From contig NZ_JAUSLT010000065.1 of the NCBI RefSeq assembly GCF_030646015.1, forward strand, positions 27,373-91,372: a DNA stretch of 64,000 bases, given 5' to 3'. Under the pieces are notes generated by a model. That model worked only from the letters and a program-made list of their open reading frames with translations. It had not been told where the DNA came from and searched no databases. The stretch comes from Bradyrhizobium sp. (lineage in GTDB: Bacteria > Pseudomonadota > Alphaproteobacteria > Rhizobiales > Xanthobacteraceae). Position 1 is the stretch's first letter. The number at the start of each line of letters is the position of its first letter. Below, piece by piece: positions 17,008 through 28,791 of this stretch. A program made the translations under genes and the position numbers.

Positions 17008-18951
17008 TCAACCGGCAGCGGCATCGCTGTCGGGAAAGCGGCGGGGCAATGTCAGCCTGACGCGGGTGCCGCCGGCGTCCGAGGTCAGCTCCAGCTCCGC
17101 GCCGCAGCGTGCGGCGCGGCTTCGCATGTTGCGCAGGCCGCGCGCCGCATGTTGCCCGGCCGCGGCTTCGCCATTTGTAGCCAGTTCAAAACCCTTGCCG
17201 TCGTCCTCGATGGTGATGCGGCCACGCGCGATGCCCTGGGTGTCAACCGATGTTTCGATGCTCACGGTGATGCGCCGCGCCCCGGCGTGCTTGACGGCGT
17301 TGGTCACGGCCTCGTCGAGCAGCCGTATGATCTGGATGACGTGCCAGGGCCTGAGTTCGGGATGGACCGGCAGGCCCTGCGGGCCGACCGCCCGCCACAC
17401 CAGCGCAATGTCATGCGGCCGCAGCTGCGCGGTGACCCGCTCGCGCCACGAGCCCAGCGCCAGCATCAGGTCGCCGCCGATATCGTCCATGGAATCGATG
17501 ACGAGACGAAGATCCTTCAGCGCCGCCCGGGCCGCGTCGCCGATTCCGGCACCGGCATTGCCGCGCTCGCTGAGGGCTACGATGCTGACGAGCTGACCGC
17601 CGAGGCCGTCATGCAGGTCGCGCATCAGGCGGGTTCGCTCGCGCGCCAGCGCCGCCGCGCGGGCGCGTTCTTCCTCTCTGACAAAACTGGCCTTCAGCTT
17701 GTCCTCGGCCTCGCGCACCAGGGTGACCATGCTGGCGGCAAAACCGTCGACCTGGTTGAGCGCGCGGGCGAAGCGCCAGGTCAACGCGGCGCCGATCGCC
17801 ACCAGCATGGCCGAATAAGACAGCCGTGCGAGCAGGATGCGCCGGCTGGGCACGAGCTGCAGCACCGAGAGCAGGTCGAGCGCCCAGCAGGTCAGCACGA
17901 TCGTCAGCGCGCAGCCGAGCATGACGCTGGCCGCATCCTGCCGCCGCCACACCGAGTGGCCGGCCACGACCGTCAGCGCGATGAGACACAGGCCGACGGT
18001 CGGCGCGCCGACCAGCAGAAAGGCATCGCGGCTGAGCGTCGCATCGCCGACCAACCCGGCAGCCGCGACCACAAGGCCGGGCGCGAAGATCAGCCAGCCG
18101 TAACGCGGCCATTTCCAGCCGAAGAACAATAGCGCGAAGGTCAGCACCAGCGCGCTTTCTAGCGGCGCCGCGGAGATCAACATCGCGTTGAGCCTCGAGA
18201 ACGCCGAATCCTCCAGCGGCGTCTGCAAAAAAGCCTGGGCGACGCCGAGCGCCATCGCCGCGGCCAGCACGCCATAGGCCGGCTCGTGGCGCCGCATCAC
18301 CCACATGATGCCGAGGATCACGGCGAGGATCGCCTGCCAGGCCGAAAACACCACCGGCAAGGTGACGAACAGCAGCGTCCGCATGTCGTAGCTCGGCCGC
18401 AGCTCGGCGTCCGGGCCGACATAGAGGCGATCGAGAAAGCCCCTGATCGGACCCCATACGAACAGGCGGATGGTGAGATCGTTGGCGCCCTCGCGCAGCA
18501 GCGAGGCCGGGATGACCGCGATTTCAGGCGCATTGCGATCGGGACGGTTGGCGGCGGGATTGCGCCGGCTGTCCAGGATCACGACGCCGTTGATGGCGAC
18601 CTCGACGCCGTTGGTGAAGCGCGGCAGCAAGACCGACCACGCGCCTTGCGGCTCGCCGCCGGCCCAAGTGGCTGGCCATGTGAACCGGCCGCTGTAGAGC
18701 GGCGGATCGTTCATCGTATAGCGCGAAGCGGTGAAGTGCGGCAGCGTCACCGGCTGCTCGACGCCGTGCTCGCGCAGGCTGAAATCGGTGACGAGATAAC
18801 GCGGGGAGGGCTCCGGCGGCGGGATGCGCAGCACCACCAGGCACAGCACGATGATGAACGGCTGGAGCAGGAGATACTGCACCAGCAGTGTGGCCCGCTT
18901 CGGCCAGCGGCGGCGGCCTGTAGAGGCGGTCGTCGGCGCCGCGTCGCTCAC
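17008..18951 (-). CDS. Membrane sensor histidine kinase, NarX/DesK type with 7TM sensor
   Basis: Partner of the response regulator encoded just upstream. An N-terminal membrane helix and a periplasmic beta-rich segment (residues 50-200) precede seven hydrophobic helices (about 205-415), an arrangement like 7TMR-DISM sensors. The kinase core has the HisKA_3 phosphoacceptor in RLMRDLHDGLGGQL and an ATPase domain with DEAVTNAVKHAGA and IEDDGKGFE. The start is a GTG that overlaps the regulator stop (GTGA), so the two are translationally coupled. The signal sensed is unknown. Confidence 0.85.
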   Translation of the reverse strand: MSDAAPTTASTGRRRWPKRATLLVQYLLLQPFIIVLCLVVLRIPPPEPSPRYLVTDFSLREHGVEQPVTLPHFTASRYTMNDPPLYSGRFTWPATWAGGEPQGAWSVLLPRFTNGVEVAINGVVILDSRRNPAANRPDRNAPEIAVIPASLLREGANDLTIRLFVWGPIRGFLDRLYVGPDAELRPSYDMRTLLFVTLPVVFSAWQAILAVILGIMWVMRRHEPAYGVLAAAMALGVAQAFLQTPLEDSAFSRLNAMLISAAPLESALVLTFALLFFGWKWPRYGWLIFAPGLVVAAAGLVGDATLSRDAFLLVGAPTVGLCLIALTVVAGHSVWRRQDAASVMLGCALTIVLTCWALDLLSVLQLVPSRRILLARLSYSAMLVAIGAALTWRFARALNQVDGFAASMVTLVREAEDKLKASFVREEERARAAALARERTRLMRDLHDGLGGQLVSIVALSERGNAGAGIGDAARAALKDLRLVIDSMDDIGGDLMLALGSWRERVTAQLRPHDIALVWRAVGPQGLPVHPELRPWHVIQIIRLLDEAVTNAVKHAGARRITVSIETSVDTQGIARGRITIEDDGKGFELATNGEAAAGQHAARGLRNMRSRAARCGAELELTSDAGGTRVRLTLPRRFPDSDAAAG

Positions 18952-19625
18952 AACCGGATCAGGCCCTGCTGCAGCGCCTCGAACACCGCCTCGCCGCGGG
19001 TATGGACTTCCAGCTTGCGGTAGATGTTCTTGATATGGCCGGGAACGGTCTGGCGCGACAGCCCGAGATGGCCGGCGATCTCGGCATAACTAAAGCCCTT
19101 GGCGATGCCCCAGAGGATATCGATCTCGCGCGGCGTCAGCTTGGCCGTGTTGAGCGGCGGGCCGGGCGGCGGCTCCGCGGTGCTCTGGGTCCGGCGCACG
19201 ATGAAGCGGGCGATCGACGCCGAGATCGGCGAATGTCCGGCCACCAGCTCGCGCACGGTGGCGGCGATGTCGGTCGGAAACGCGTCTTTCAACAGATAGC
19301 CGGTGGCGCCGACGGTGATGGCGGAGATCACGCTCTCCTCGTCGCCGAGAATCGAGATCACCATGATTTCGGTGTCGGGATAGCGCAGCCGGGTCTCGCG
19401 GATCAGCTCATTGCCGTGGCCGTCCGGCAGCTGCAGATCAGTCAACAGCACCTTTGGTCCGGCTTGCGCCAGGCTGGCGCGGGCCTCGGCCAGGGTCGCT
19501 GCCGAGGTGACGTGGAATCCGGCCTTGGCCAGCGCGTCCTGCAGCCGCCACAAGGTCGGCGCGTCGTCCTCGACCAGCAAAATCGAGATCGGCTGCGCCG
19601 CGCCCTGATCGCTCAACACACTCAT
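18948..19625 (-). CDS. NarL/LuxR-family response regulator
   Basis: Receiver domain at residues 13-130 with the acidic pair in LLVEDD, the phosphoacceptor in VLLTDLQLPDG and the Lys in GYLLKDAFP. The C-terminal HTH reads LTPREIDILWGIAKGFSYAEIAGHLGLS, typical of LuxR-type domains. It is the first gene of a two-gene operon with the sensor kinase. A CCATGTTCATGG palindrome 67 bp upstream may be its own binding site. Confidence 0.9.
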   Translation of the reverse strand: MSVLSDQGAAQPISILLVEDDAPTLWRLQDALAKAGFHVTSAATLAEARASLAQAGPKVLLTDLQLPDGHGNELIRETRLRYPDTEIMVISILGDEESVISAITVGATGYLLKDAFPTDIAATVRELVAGHSPISASIARFIVRRTQSTAEPPPGPPLNTAKLTPREIDILWGIAKGFSYAEIAGHLGLSRQTVPGHIKNIYRKLEVHTRGEAVFEALQQGLIRL

Positions 19626-20822: not shown

Positions 20823-21635
20823 ATGGCCTATCTCGCGCCTTCGGAATTCGTCACCAAGATGGTGGACGCCGGCGAAGCCAAGATCTTCATGTCCACCAGG
20901 GACACCGTCATCCGGGCCTATATGGCCGGTGCGATCCTGGCATTGGCCGCGGCCTTCGCGGTGAGCGTCACCGTCTCGACCGGCGTTCCGTTCGTGGGTG
21001 CCGCGATGTTTCCGGTCGGCTTCTGCATGCTCTATCTGTTCGGCTTCGATCTTCTGACCGGCGTGTTTGTGCTGTGTCCGCTGGCGCTCATCGACAAGCG
21101 CCCCGGTGTCACCATCGGCGGCGTGCTGCGCAACTGGAGCCTGGTGTTCATCGGTAATTTCGCCGGCGCCTTTACGGTCGCCGTGATGATGGCGGTCGTC
21201 TTCACCTTCGGCTTCACCTCGCCGCCGGACAAGGTCGGCCAGGTCATCGGCACCATCGGCGAAGGCCGTACCGTCGGCTACGCCGCGCATGGCGCGGGCG
21301 GCATGCTGACGCTGTTCATCCGCGGCATGCTCTGCAACTGGATGGTCTCGGCCGGCGTCGTCGGCGCCATGATCTCGACCACGGTCAGCGGCAAGGTGAT
21401 CGCGATGTGGATGCCGATCATGCTGTTCTTCTTCATGACCTTCGAGCATTCCATCGTGAACATGTTCCTGTTCCCGTCGGGCCTGCTGCTCGGCGCCAAA
21501 TTCTCGATCATGGATTATTTGATCTGGAACGAGATCCCGACCGTGGTCGGCAATCTGGTCGGCGGCCTCGCCTTCACCGGACTGACGCTGTACGCCACCC
21601 ACGTCAAGACCGCGCCGAAGCGCGGGATCGCCTGA
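20823..21635 (+). CDS. Formate/nitrite transporter (FNT) family channel
   Basis: Pentameric inner-membrane channel for small monovalent anions. Six hydrophobic helices are evident, with family segments FVGAAMFPVGFCMLYLFG, GNFAGAF, GMLCNWMV (the C-N-W pore motif) and EHSIVNMFLFPSGLLLGA. Length of 270 aa is normal. I start at the ATG at 20823, because the track extension covers the leader. A sigma-54 promoter upstream implies nitrogen-responsive control, so nitrite is a more likely substrate than formate; the adjacent phosphatase/kinase gene is also often found with nitrate/nitrite assimilation genes. Confidence 0.85.
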   Translation: MAYLAPSEFVTKMVDAGEAKIFMSTRDTVIRAYMAGAILALAAAFAVSVTVSTGVPFVGAAMFPVGFCMLYLFGFDLLTGVFVLCPLALIDKRPGVTIGGVLRNWSLVFIGNFAGAFTVAVMMAVVFTFGFTSPPDKVGQVIGTIGEGRTVGYAAHGAGGMLTLFIRGMLCNWMVSAGVVGAMISTTVSGKVIAMWMPIMLFFFMTFEHSIVNMFLFPSGLLLGAKFSIMDYLIWNEIPTVVGNLVGGLAFTGLTLYATHVKTAPKRGIA

Positions 21636-21653
21636 TCGCGATTGACTTTACGG

Positions 21654-21679
21654 GGCCTCATCCTACTCAGGGTGAGGCC
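21654..21679 (+). promoter_or_regulatory. Hairpin between channel gene and phosphatase/kinase gene
   Basis: GGCCTCATCC pairs with GGGTGAGGCC over ten positions (one G-U) around a six-base loop TACTCA. There is no T-run, so it is more likely a processing or attenuation hairpin than a full terminator. Confidence 0.4.
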
Positions 21680-21700
21680 ATCAGGCCCTGGCGTCAAAAG

Positions 21701-23437
21701 ATGTCGCGTGAACTGAAAATATCGGTCGGGCAGCATTCTGATAAGGGTCGTAAGGAGACCAATCAGGACTTCCATGGCGTCCTCGTTCCGGAAGAGCCGC
21801 TGCTCGGCCTGAAGGGCATCGCCATCGTGCTGGCCGACGGCATCAGTTCGAGCCCGGTCAGCCGGATCGCAGCCGAGTCGGCGGTCAAGGGGTTCCTCAC
21901 CGACTACTACTGCACCTCGGAAGCCTGGTCGGTGAAGACCTCGGCCCAGCGCGTGCTGGCGGCCACCAACTCCTGGCTGCATGCGCAGACAAGGCGCAGC
22001 CAGTACTCCCATGACATGGACAAGGGCTACGTCTGTACCCTCAGCGCCATGGTCATCAAGTCGACCACCGCGCATATCTTTCACGTCGGCGACTCCAGGA
22101 TCTATCGCGTTTCCGGCAACGCGCTGGAGCAACTGACCACCGACCACCGGGTCATCATATCATCGCAGCAAAGCTACCTCGGCCGCGCGCTCGGGGTGAA
22201 TCCCCAGATCGAAATCGACTACCAGTCGCACCAGGTCGAGAAGGGCGATGTGTTCGTGCTCGCCACCGACGGCGTCTACGAACATGTCCCGGCCCGCTTC
22301 ATCGCCAGGGCGATCAGGGACAGCGCCGATGATCTCGATCGGGCCGCGAAGAGCATCGTCGAGCAGGCCTGGGAACAGGGCAGTCCGGACAATCTCACCG
22401 TCCAGATCGTCCGGATCGATGCTTCGCCCGCCGGCGAGGCCAGCGAGGTGTTCGGCCAACCCTCCGAACTGCCGCTGCCGCCGCTATTGGAAGCGCGGAT
22501 GGTGTTCGACGGCTACCGCATCGTCAGGGAATTGCATGCCTCGAGCCGCAGCCACATCTACCTTGCGGTCGATGCCGACAACGACGAACTGGTCGCGCTG
22601 AAAATTCCGTCGATCGATTTGCGCGGCGACCCCGCCTACCTGAAGCGCTTCATGATGGAGGAGTGGGTCGCCCGGCGCATCAACAGCGCCCATGTGCTGA
22701 AACCCTGCCTGCAGTCGCGCAAGCGCAATTACCTCTATGTCGTCACCGAATTCATCGACGGCCAGACGCTGGCGCAATGGATGATCGACAATCCGAAGCC
22801 GGATCTGGAAACCATCCGCGGCATCGTCGAGCAGATCGCAAAAGGATTGCGCGCCTTCCACCGCAAGGAAATGCTGCATCAGGACCTGCGGCCGGACAAT
22901 GTCATGATCGACAGGACCGGCACGGTGAAGATCATCGATTTCGGCTCCACCCGGGTCACCGGCGTGGTCGAGGCGGCGCCGCCGGCCGGCCGCGACGATA
23001 TTCTCGGCACCTTCCAGTACACCGCGCCGGAATACTTCATCGGCGAGAACGGCTCGTCGCGCTCCGATATCTTTTCGCTCGGAATCATCACCTACCAGAT
23101 GCTGACGGGGCGATTGCCCTATGGCGCCAAGATGGCGCGGACGCGGACCAAATCGCAGCAACGCAAACTGAAATGCCGTTCGGCGCTCGACGACAACAGC
23201 GAGATTCCGGCGTGGATCGACGGCGTCCTGAAGAAAGCGGTGCATCCCGATCCTTACAAGCGCTACGAGGCGCTGTCCGAATTCCTCCACGACCTGCGTT
23301 ATCCCAATGCGGAATTCGTCAACGCCGCGTCGGCGCCGCTGATCGAGCGCAATCCGCTGTTGTTCTGGAAGGGGCTGTCGGCGGCGCTGGTACTGGTCGT
23401 GGTGGTGCTGCTGGCGATGCTGCAGGGCCATCGCTAA
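21701..23437 (+). CDS. Bifunctional PP2C phosphatase / Ser-Thr protein kinase, membrane-anchored
   Basis: Two opposing activities in one chain. Residues 1-240 are a PP2C domain (QHSDKGRKETNQDFHG, VLADGISS, FHVGDSRIYRV, VLATDGVYE, GSPDNLTVQIV). Residues 265-530 are a Hanks-type kinase: Lys in VALKIPS, catalytic loop LHQDLRPDNVMID (HQD instead of HRD), DFG in IIDFGSTRV, then YTAPEYF. The glycine loop is degenerate. A single C-terminal helix (LVLVVVVLLAMLQG) anchors it in the membrane. The ATG at 21701 follows the channel gene by 65 bp. Context suggests control of nitrite transport or assimilation. Confidence 0.85.
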   Translation: MSRELKISVGQHSDKGRKETNQDFHGVLVPEEPLLGLKGIAIVLADGISSSPVSRIAAESAVKGFLTDYYCTSEAWSVKTSAQRVLAATNSWLHAQTRRSQYSHDMDKGYVCTLSAMVIKSTTAHIFHVGDSRIYRVSGNALEQLTTDHRVIISSQQSYLGRALGVNPQIEIDYQSHQVEKGDVFVLATDGVYEHVPARFIARAIRDSADDLDRAAKSIVEQAWEQGSPDNLTVQIVRIDASPAGEASEVFGQPSELPLPPLLEARMVFDGYRIVRELHASSRSHIYLAVDADNDELVALKIPSIDLRGDPAYLKRFMMEEWVARRINSAHVLKPCLQSRKRNYLYVVTEFIDGQTLAQWMIDNPKPDLETIRGIVEQIAKGLRAFHRKEMLHQDLRPDNVMIDRTGTVKIIDFGSTRVTGVVEAAPPAGRDDILGTFQYTAPEYFIGENGSSRSDIFSLGIITYQMLTGRLPYGAKMARTRTKSQQRKLKCRSALDDNSEIPAWIDGVLKKAVHPDPYKRYEALSEFLHDLRYPNAEFVNAASAPLIERNPLLFWKGLSAALVLVVVVLLAMLQGHR

Positions 23438-28642: not shown

Positions 28643-28791
28643 CTTTCTCCCCTCCCTCCACGCGCCCTTGCGCGTGGCGGGGAGGGGTCGGGGGTGGGGG
28701 GTGGTTCAGCGCATTCGACCAGCAGCGAATTTGCGGGAAGCGCCCCCCACCCCCGACCCCTCCCCACCGCTTCGCGGGAGGAGGGGAGAAG
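28643..28791. repeat. Dispersed intergenic palindromic repeat, family A copy 3
   Basis: Outer arms CTTTCTCCCCTCC and GGAGGGGAGAAG-like, inner arms GGGGTCGGGGGTGGGGG and CCCCCACCCCCGACCCC. It fills most of the 260-bp space between the convergent hybrid kinase and Mur-ligase genes. Confidence 0.75.

Follow-up and report, generated by a model that had tools for sequence, protein, structure and literature searches.

A PP2C phosphatase–Hanks kinase fusion encoded beside an FNT-family anion channel suggests a dedicated switch for nitrite or cyanate uptake in proteobacteria

In a 64,000-nucleotide stretch of the Bradyrhizobium sp. contig NZ_JAUSLT010000065.1 (the window), positions 20823–23437 hold two plus-strand genes, one for an FNT-family anion channel and the next, beyond an intergenic hairpin, for a membrane protein that carries a PP2C phosphatase and a Hanks-type kinase in one chain. 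As far as sequence comparison goes, channel and kinase genes are physically linked across many genomes, and the type of transporter next to the kinase follows the kinase tree. This adjacency suggests, though it does not prove, that the fused protein is a dedicated switch for nitrite/cyanate uptake.

The channel gene (20823..21635, +) encodes 270 residues; its product is NAR1/LCIA-like and keeps residues aligned with FocA. The fused gene (21701..23437, +) encodes 578 residues: a PP2C domain (residues ~6–241; 21716..22423, +) in which the metal-site residues Asp23, Asp46, Asp190 and Asp230 are intact, a Hanks-type kinase domain (residues ~267–534; 22499..23302, +) with intact Lys301, Glu320, Asp395, Asn400 and Asp413, and a C-terminal membrane helix (residues ~552–576; 23354..23428, +), just before which stands a near-invariant RNPxxFW motif. 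All Pfam scores exceeded their cut-offs (PP2C_2: 59.7 bits; PP2C: 38.7 bits; Pkinase: 133.8 bits), with PP2C bounded at residues 17–231 and the kinase at residues 282–525. An AlphaFold model (pLDDT 88, pTM 0.83) was obtained from an alignment of 31 sequences, comprising the window, species-collection and genome loci and leaving out plasmid-record rows; in Foldseek comparisons its N-terminal part matched the PP2C enzymes PppA, tPphA and PstP and its kinase part matched PknB-type kinases. A hydrophobic 19-mer at residue 553 has a mean hydropathy of 2.5, and the rest of the chain contains no comparable stretch; with strong hydrophobicity confined to the C-terminal end, both catalytic domains should be cytoplasmic. 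The metal-binding Asp residues and overall fold identify the first domain as a PP2C-type Ser/Thr phosphatase, the VAIK Lys, helix-C Glu, HxD Asp, Asn and DFG Asp identify the second as a Hanks-type kinase, and the placement of PP2C N-terminal to the kinase in a single chain puts the protein in the PP2C–kinase fusion class. The first-pass annotation had proposed this combination of PP2C, Hanks kinase and C-terminal membrane anchor, on which Pfam, AlphaFold and hydropathy agree, as well as a fused gene following the channel gene with a hairpin between them, which the coordinates and an 11-pair stem bear out. The closest orthologues are from two MAGs titled Bradyrhizobium sp. (97% and 95%).

Nine catalytic residues were checked across the two domains (D23, D46, D190, D230, K301, E320, D395, N400 and D413), and all nine were intact in 172 of 175 aligned relatives. 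The nucleotide loop, HASSRSHI (residues 279–286; 22535..22558, +), is glycine-free throughout the channel-linked clade, where H279, S281 and S284 stand in place of the glycines of GxGxxG; position 284 was Ser in 135/135 FNT-linked proteins. The catalytic loop reads HQD (residues 393–395; 22877..22885, +), a non-RD form typical of the clade, with Gln at position 394 in 130 of 135 FNT-linked proteins; NarK-linked relatives had HRD in 18/30 and HQD in 12/30. It had been claimed from the window alone that the loop was degenerate, that HQD replaced HRD and that the balance of activities might be unusual. The absence of all three glycines and the HQD are indeed there; the reading as a degenerate or inactive kinase is dropped, because both features are conserved in the clade and the catalytic residues are intact, and the same observations leave an unusual balance of activities without support. 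A glycine-free loop is a variant within the Hanks family and no ground for exclusion from it, and, judging from the aligned relatives, this loop and HQD are lineage traits and not decay. The Arg of HRD touches the activation loop in its phosphorylated state, and HQD enzymes may therefore do without such activation. With the active-site residues intact, both the kinase and the PP2C domain would be expected to catalyse, which probably enables one protein to attach phosphate and to take it off again.

The linkage of channel and kinase was evaluated in several genome samples. Among 80 orthologues drawn from a one-genome-per-species collection, an FNT gene adjoins the kinase upstream in 78, within ~760 bp and in a few cases with cynS in between; as for the two exceptions, one (L107) starts at a contig edge and the other (L071) is a locus without the channel. 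Across the phylum, 299 genomes were sampled, and a kinase was adjacent to 43 of the 45 FNT genes whose products were at least 60% identical to the window channel, compared with 0 of 23 below 60%. The exceptions are G337, where the channel and a kinase fragment lie on separate contigs, and G108, a genome that carries a second channel copy in a separate place. Close FNTs without an adjacent kinase do exist, namely at L213 and, in a further class-wide sample, at L218 (channel 64% identical, kinase absent from the locus). The pair is kept in alpha-, beta- and gammaproteobacteria, plasmids included (records from Azospirillum, Methylobacterium, Cupriavidus, Ideonella and Acinetobacter); a Sulfitobacter plasmid record starts just before the kinase, after which cyanase comes next. 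At L192 and L193 the two genes are adjacent yet convergent, indicating that the linkage does not rest on co-transcription.

Kinases 30–50% identical to the fused protein adjoin NarK-type nitrate/nitrite transporters, often with nirB, nirD and nasC in the run. The FNT-linked proteins formed one supported group in a tree built from 111 kinases, and the FNT/NarK partner label changed once, this being a quick tree in which 34 of 108 inner branches are open. The channel–kinase pair is preceded by nirB and nirD in several lineages, and cynS is found after or between the two genes in others. In the window genome the pair does not lie beside nir, nas or cyn genes, cyanase is on a different contig and no protein scores as NirB at the curated cut-off; in Bradyrhizobium japonicum, nitrite assimilation uses a NirA encoded elsewhere (PMC4724949). 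The earlier proposal that the target is the channel or a nitrite-assimilation protein gains comparative support from the genomic tie, in many proteobacteria, to channel genes and to genes of nitrite (and cyanate) assimilation, and the target itself is putative.

Some loci depart from these arrangements. At L097 (2936–7713) there are two kinase/phosphatase genes, one adjoining an FNT channel and the other grouping with the NarK-linked proteins, and at L126 (7059–10677) the gene for a 34% identical kinase/phosphatase is oriented divergently to one for an ammonium transporter (Amt). Divergent from the pair in the window are genes for a histidine kinase and a LuxR-type response regulator (17008–19625, −), best matching Mct/Mad/Nar-like families; these local two-component genes were rejected as part of the system, being upstream of the pair in L036 and not evident at L041, L056 or other listed Bradyrhizobium loci. 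A dead branch of the family was found at L175 (5984–7699), L176 (6204–8000) and L177 (6643–8403), each member adjoining a phosphofructokinase gene; the kinase catalytic Asp is changed to Gln/Arg/Ala, the PP2C Asps are lost and the membrane helix is kept. This branch is a possible pseudo-enzyme regulator of glycolysis.

The channel, the only FNT found in the window genome, scored 202.9 bits against Form_Nir_trans in Pfam (cut-off: 34.6 bits). This match and the conserved T79 and H209 place it in the FNT family: T79, aligned with FocA Thr91, was present in 129/129 kinase-linked channel rows, and H209, aligned with FocA His209, in at least 98% of kinase-linked channels. It did not reach the cut-offs of the NCBIfam NirC equivalog (39.1 vs. 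293 bits), the FocA equivalog TIGR04060 (105 vs. 290.1 bits) or TIGR00790, and among channels of solved structure its best relative is algal NAR1/LCIA; LCIA has been reported to transport nitrite and bicarbonate (PMC4620153). The label "nitrite-type" in the first-pass annotation fits the FNT family, and nitrite is a plausible but putative substrate, given the failed NirC and FocA cut-offs and the NAR1/LCIA relative. From the neighbouring genes we infer the substrate anion, and cyanate would be another candidate, given the cyanase neighbours. Overlapping specificity of nitrite and cyanate transporters has been reported (PMC6627978), and for an FNT beside cynS in Nitrospirales a role in cyanate import has been suggested (PMC12342949). 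At L213 (6505–10686), a 78% identical channel without a kinase is followed by nirB, nirD and cynS in a single run, which would fit a nitrite/cyanate substrate.

The hairpin between the two genes, GGCCTCATCCTACTCAGGGTGAGGCC (21654..21679, +), has 11 pairs and, in the window copy, no T-run. Its pattern occurred in 0 of 100 shuffled windows and in one copy in the genome, and with its flanks the hairpin gave z = −3.25. Stems with 8 or more pairs were present in 52 of 82 transporter–kinase gaps (8.8 expected from shuffles) and T-rich tails in 12 (1.6 expected). The stem-loop is conserved by position, not by sequence: hairpin sequences are often unrelated between gaps, even between the window genome and its 97% relative, and the L036/L037 gap carries a different palindrome, CCGGGCGA-type, in the hairpin's place. 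We rejected a repeated palindrome, the exact pattern being present only once in the genome, and, for the window copy, an intrinsic terminator, given the missing T-run and a terminator scan without a call there; Rfam yielded no RNA family at the locus. On the simplest reading, the positional stem-loop would lower kinase expression relative to the channel. Elsewhere in the window (28677–28767), a palindrome gives sub-threshold mir-629-like/animal microRNA-family matches on both strands and is probably a bacterial repeat.

The strict coupling to nitrogen-anion transporters leads to a specific hypothesis, that the kinase/phosphatase switches the transporter. Our tentative but quite plausible proposal is that the fused protein could be a membrane-anchored on/off switch dedicated to nitrite and/or cyanate uptake via the FNT channel encoded next to it. 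Facing the cytoplasm on one tail-anchored chain, its kinase and PP2C domains would set the phosphorylation of the channel, the likeliest sites being its cytosolic N-terminus (S7, T11, S24, T25, T28) or its C-terminal tail (T263), and nitrite or cyanate that is toxic or unneeded would be admitted only if the enzymes of assimilation are able to use it. A sister protein would do the same job in relatives with a NarK-type permease. Phosphorylation of the channel itself and the input signal are both putative, and adjacency alone does not identify a kinase substrate. From the FocA fold, T11, S24, T28 and T263 are expected on the cytosolic side. Ser/Thr occupies these four positions in 94–100% of kinase-linked channels vs. 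10–40% of unlinked ones, a contrast that is confounded by phylogeny since most unlinked channels come from other FNT clades. In two unlinked channels that are closer to the window channel, position 11 is Val in L213 (78%) and Glu in L218 (64%); the L214 channel (61%), whose genome has a kinase elsewhere, keeps Thr. Because several kinase-linked channels lack Thr11, this residue is a candidate site only. It is also possible, if rather doubtful, that a widespread module is at work in which the kinase/phosphatase gates a nitrogen-anion transporter, the transporter type (FNT or NarK) having been swapped and the enzyme's job kept, with the dead branch recruited beside phosphofructokinase genes.

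The switch could instead act on a cytosolic partner (nitrite reductase, nitrate reductase, cyanase or a nitrogen regulator), owing its place beside the transporter only to the sensing of ion flux or to membership of one regulon. The recurrence of nirBD, nasC and cynS in the same runs speaks for such a target, and a nitrite-assimilation protein had been named at first pass; however, the one neighbour that stays constant is the transporter, the nir, nas and cyn genes being in many cases missing or located away from the pair (the window genome is an example), and the partner type follows the kinase tree. We consider this reading unlikely. It is improbable that the channel is the sensor, its occupancy or flux driving the kinase/phosphatase towards targets elsewhere in the cell in a transceptor-like manner: since the kinase has a membrane helix and no extracytoplasmic sensor domain, the input could come from a partner in the membrane, yet no candidate target is conserved alongside the kinase.

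That the pair serves another anion, formate or bicarbonate, with nitrogen a secondary link, would suit a channel gene that fails the NirC cut-off and the fact that cyanase also consumes bicarbonate. The nearest solved structure, LCIA, is likewise a nitrite/bicarbonate channel (PMC4620153). Against this, nirBD, nasC and cynS recur as neighbours, also beside FNTs without a kinase, and the sister kinases are located with nitrate transporters, which leaves it quite improbable. Operons can travel together, and the adjacency might then be inherited gene order devoid of a functional link; we hold this for very improbable, as the pair is kept in three proteobacterial classes and also on plasmids, the two genes being convergent in some loci and co-directional in others, and as a different transporter from the same pathway took the partner's place on one occasion.

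The gene pair is real, and the fused architecture is already known yet uncharacterised; public records of relatives bear the name bifunctional protein-serine/threonine kinase/phosphatase. The Pseudomonas protein gi|9947763, probably PA1782, is presumably encoded near nasA and nirB, and would then be a NarK-linked sister and not an FNT-linked member. Fusion of PP2C and kinase in bacteria was first described in 2005, as a class then uncharacterised (Krupa and Srinivasan, PMC1262709); in the Pseudomonas fusions of that report, too, a single chain joins a PP2C at the N-terminus to a Hanks kinase, and the relevant passages give no transporter linkage, unlike the channel-linked protein here. PA1782 is in a list of Pseudomonas aeruginosa Ser/Thr kinases, without a function (PMC8560001), and in the main text of a survey of prokaryotic FNTs, as far as it was accessible, the word kinase is absent (PMC5525234). 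A search of the open-access literature yielded no publication describing the transporter pairing or an FNT–kinase operon, the positional hairpin, the dead paralogue beside phosphofructokinase genes or the function of PA1782.

Among characterised systems, the Stk1/PknB kinases and their Stp1/PstP PP2C partners match the fused protein in kinase and PP2C folds. Unlike them, it has both enzymes in one chain, a glycine-free loop and HQD and, unlike Stk1/PknB, no PASTA or other outer domain; its scores fall far short of the equivalog cut-offs, at 172 of the 450 bits required for the PASTA kinase Stk1/PknB (NF033483), the match being confined to the kinase, and at 111 of 230 bits for the second equivalog. 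NAR1/LCIA, FocA and NirC share the FNT family with the neighbouring channel, LCIA being the nearest solved; unlike FocA, NirC and TIGR00790 members, the window channel is below curated cut-offs and belongs to a subfamily coupled to a kinase. Arabidopsis NRT1.1, switched by CIPK23 through phosphorylation of T101 (PMC4620153), sets a precedent for a transporter of nitrogen anions that is tuned by reversible phosphorylation of a Thr, by analogy only, the proteins being unrelated.

If the proposed switch on the adjacent transporter is true, it would represent dedicated Ser/Thr kinase/phosphatase control of bacterial nitrogen-anion uptake, a regulation of which we found no description, and the comparison offers a concrete candidate substrate for the fused protein: the neighbouring transporter, with named candidate sites.
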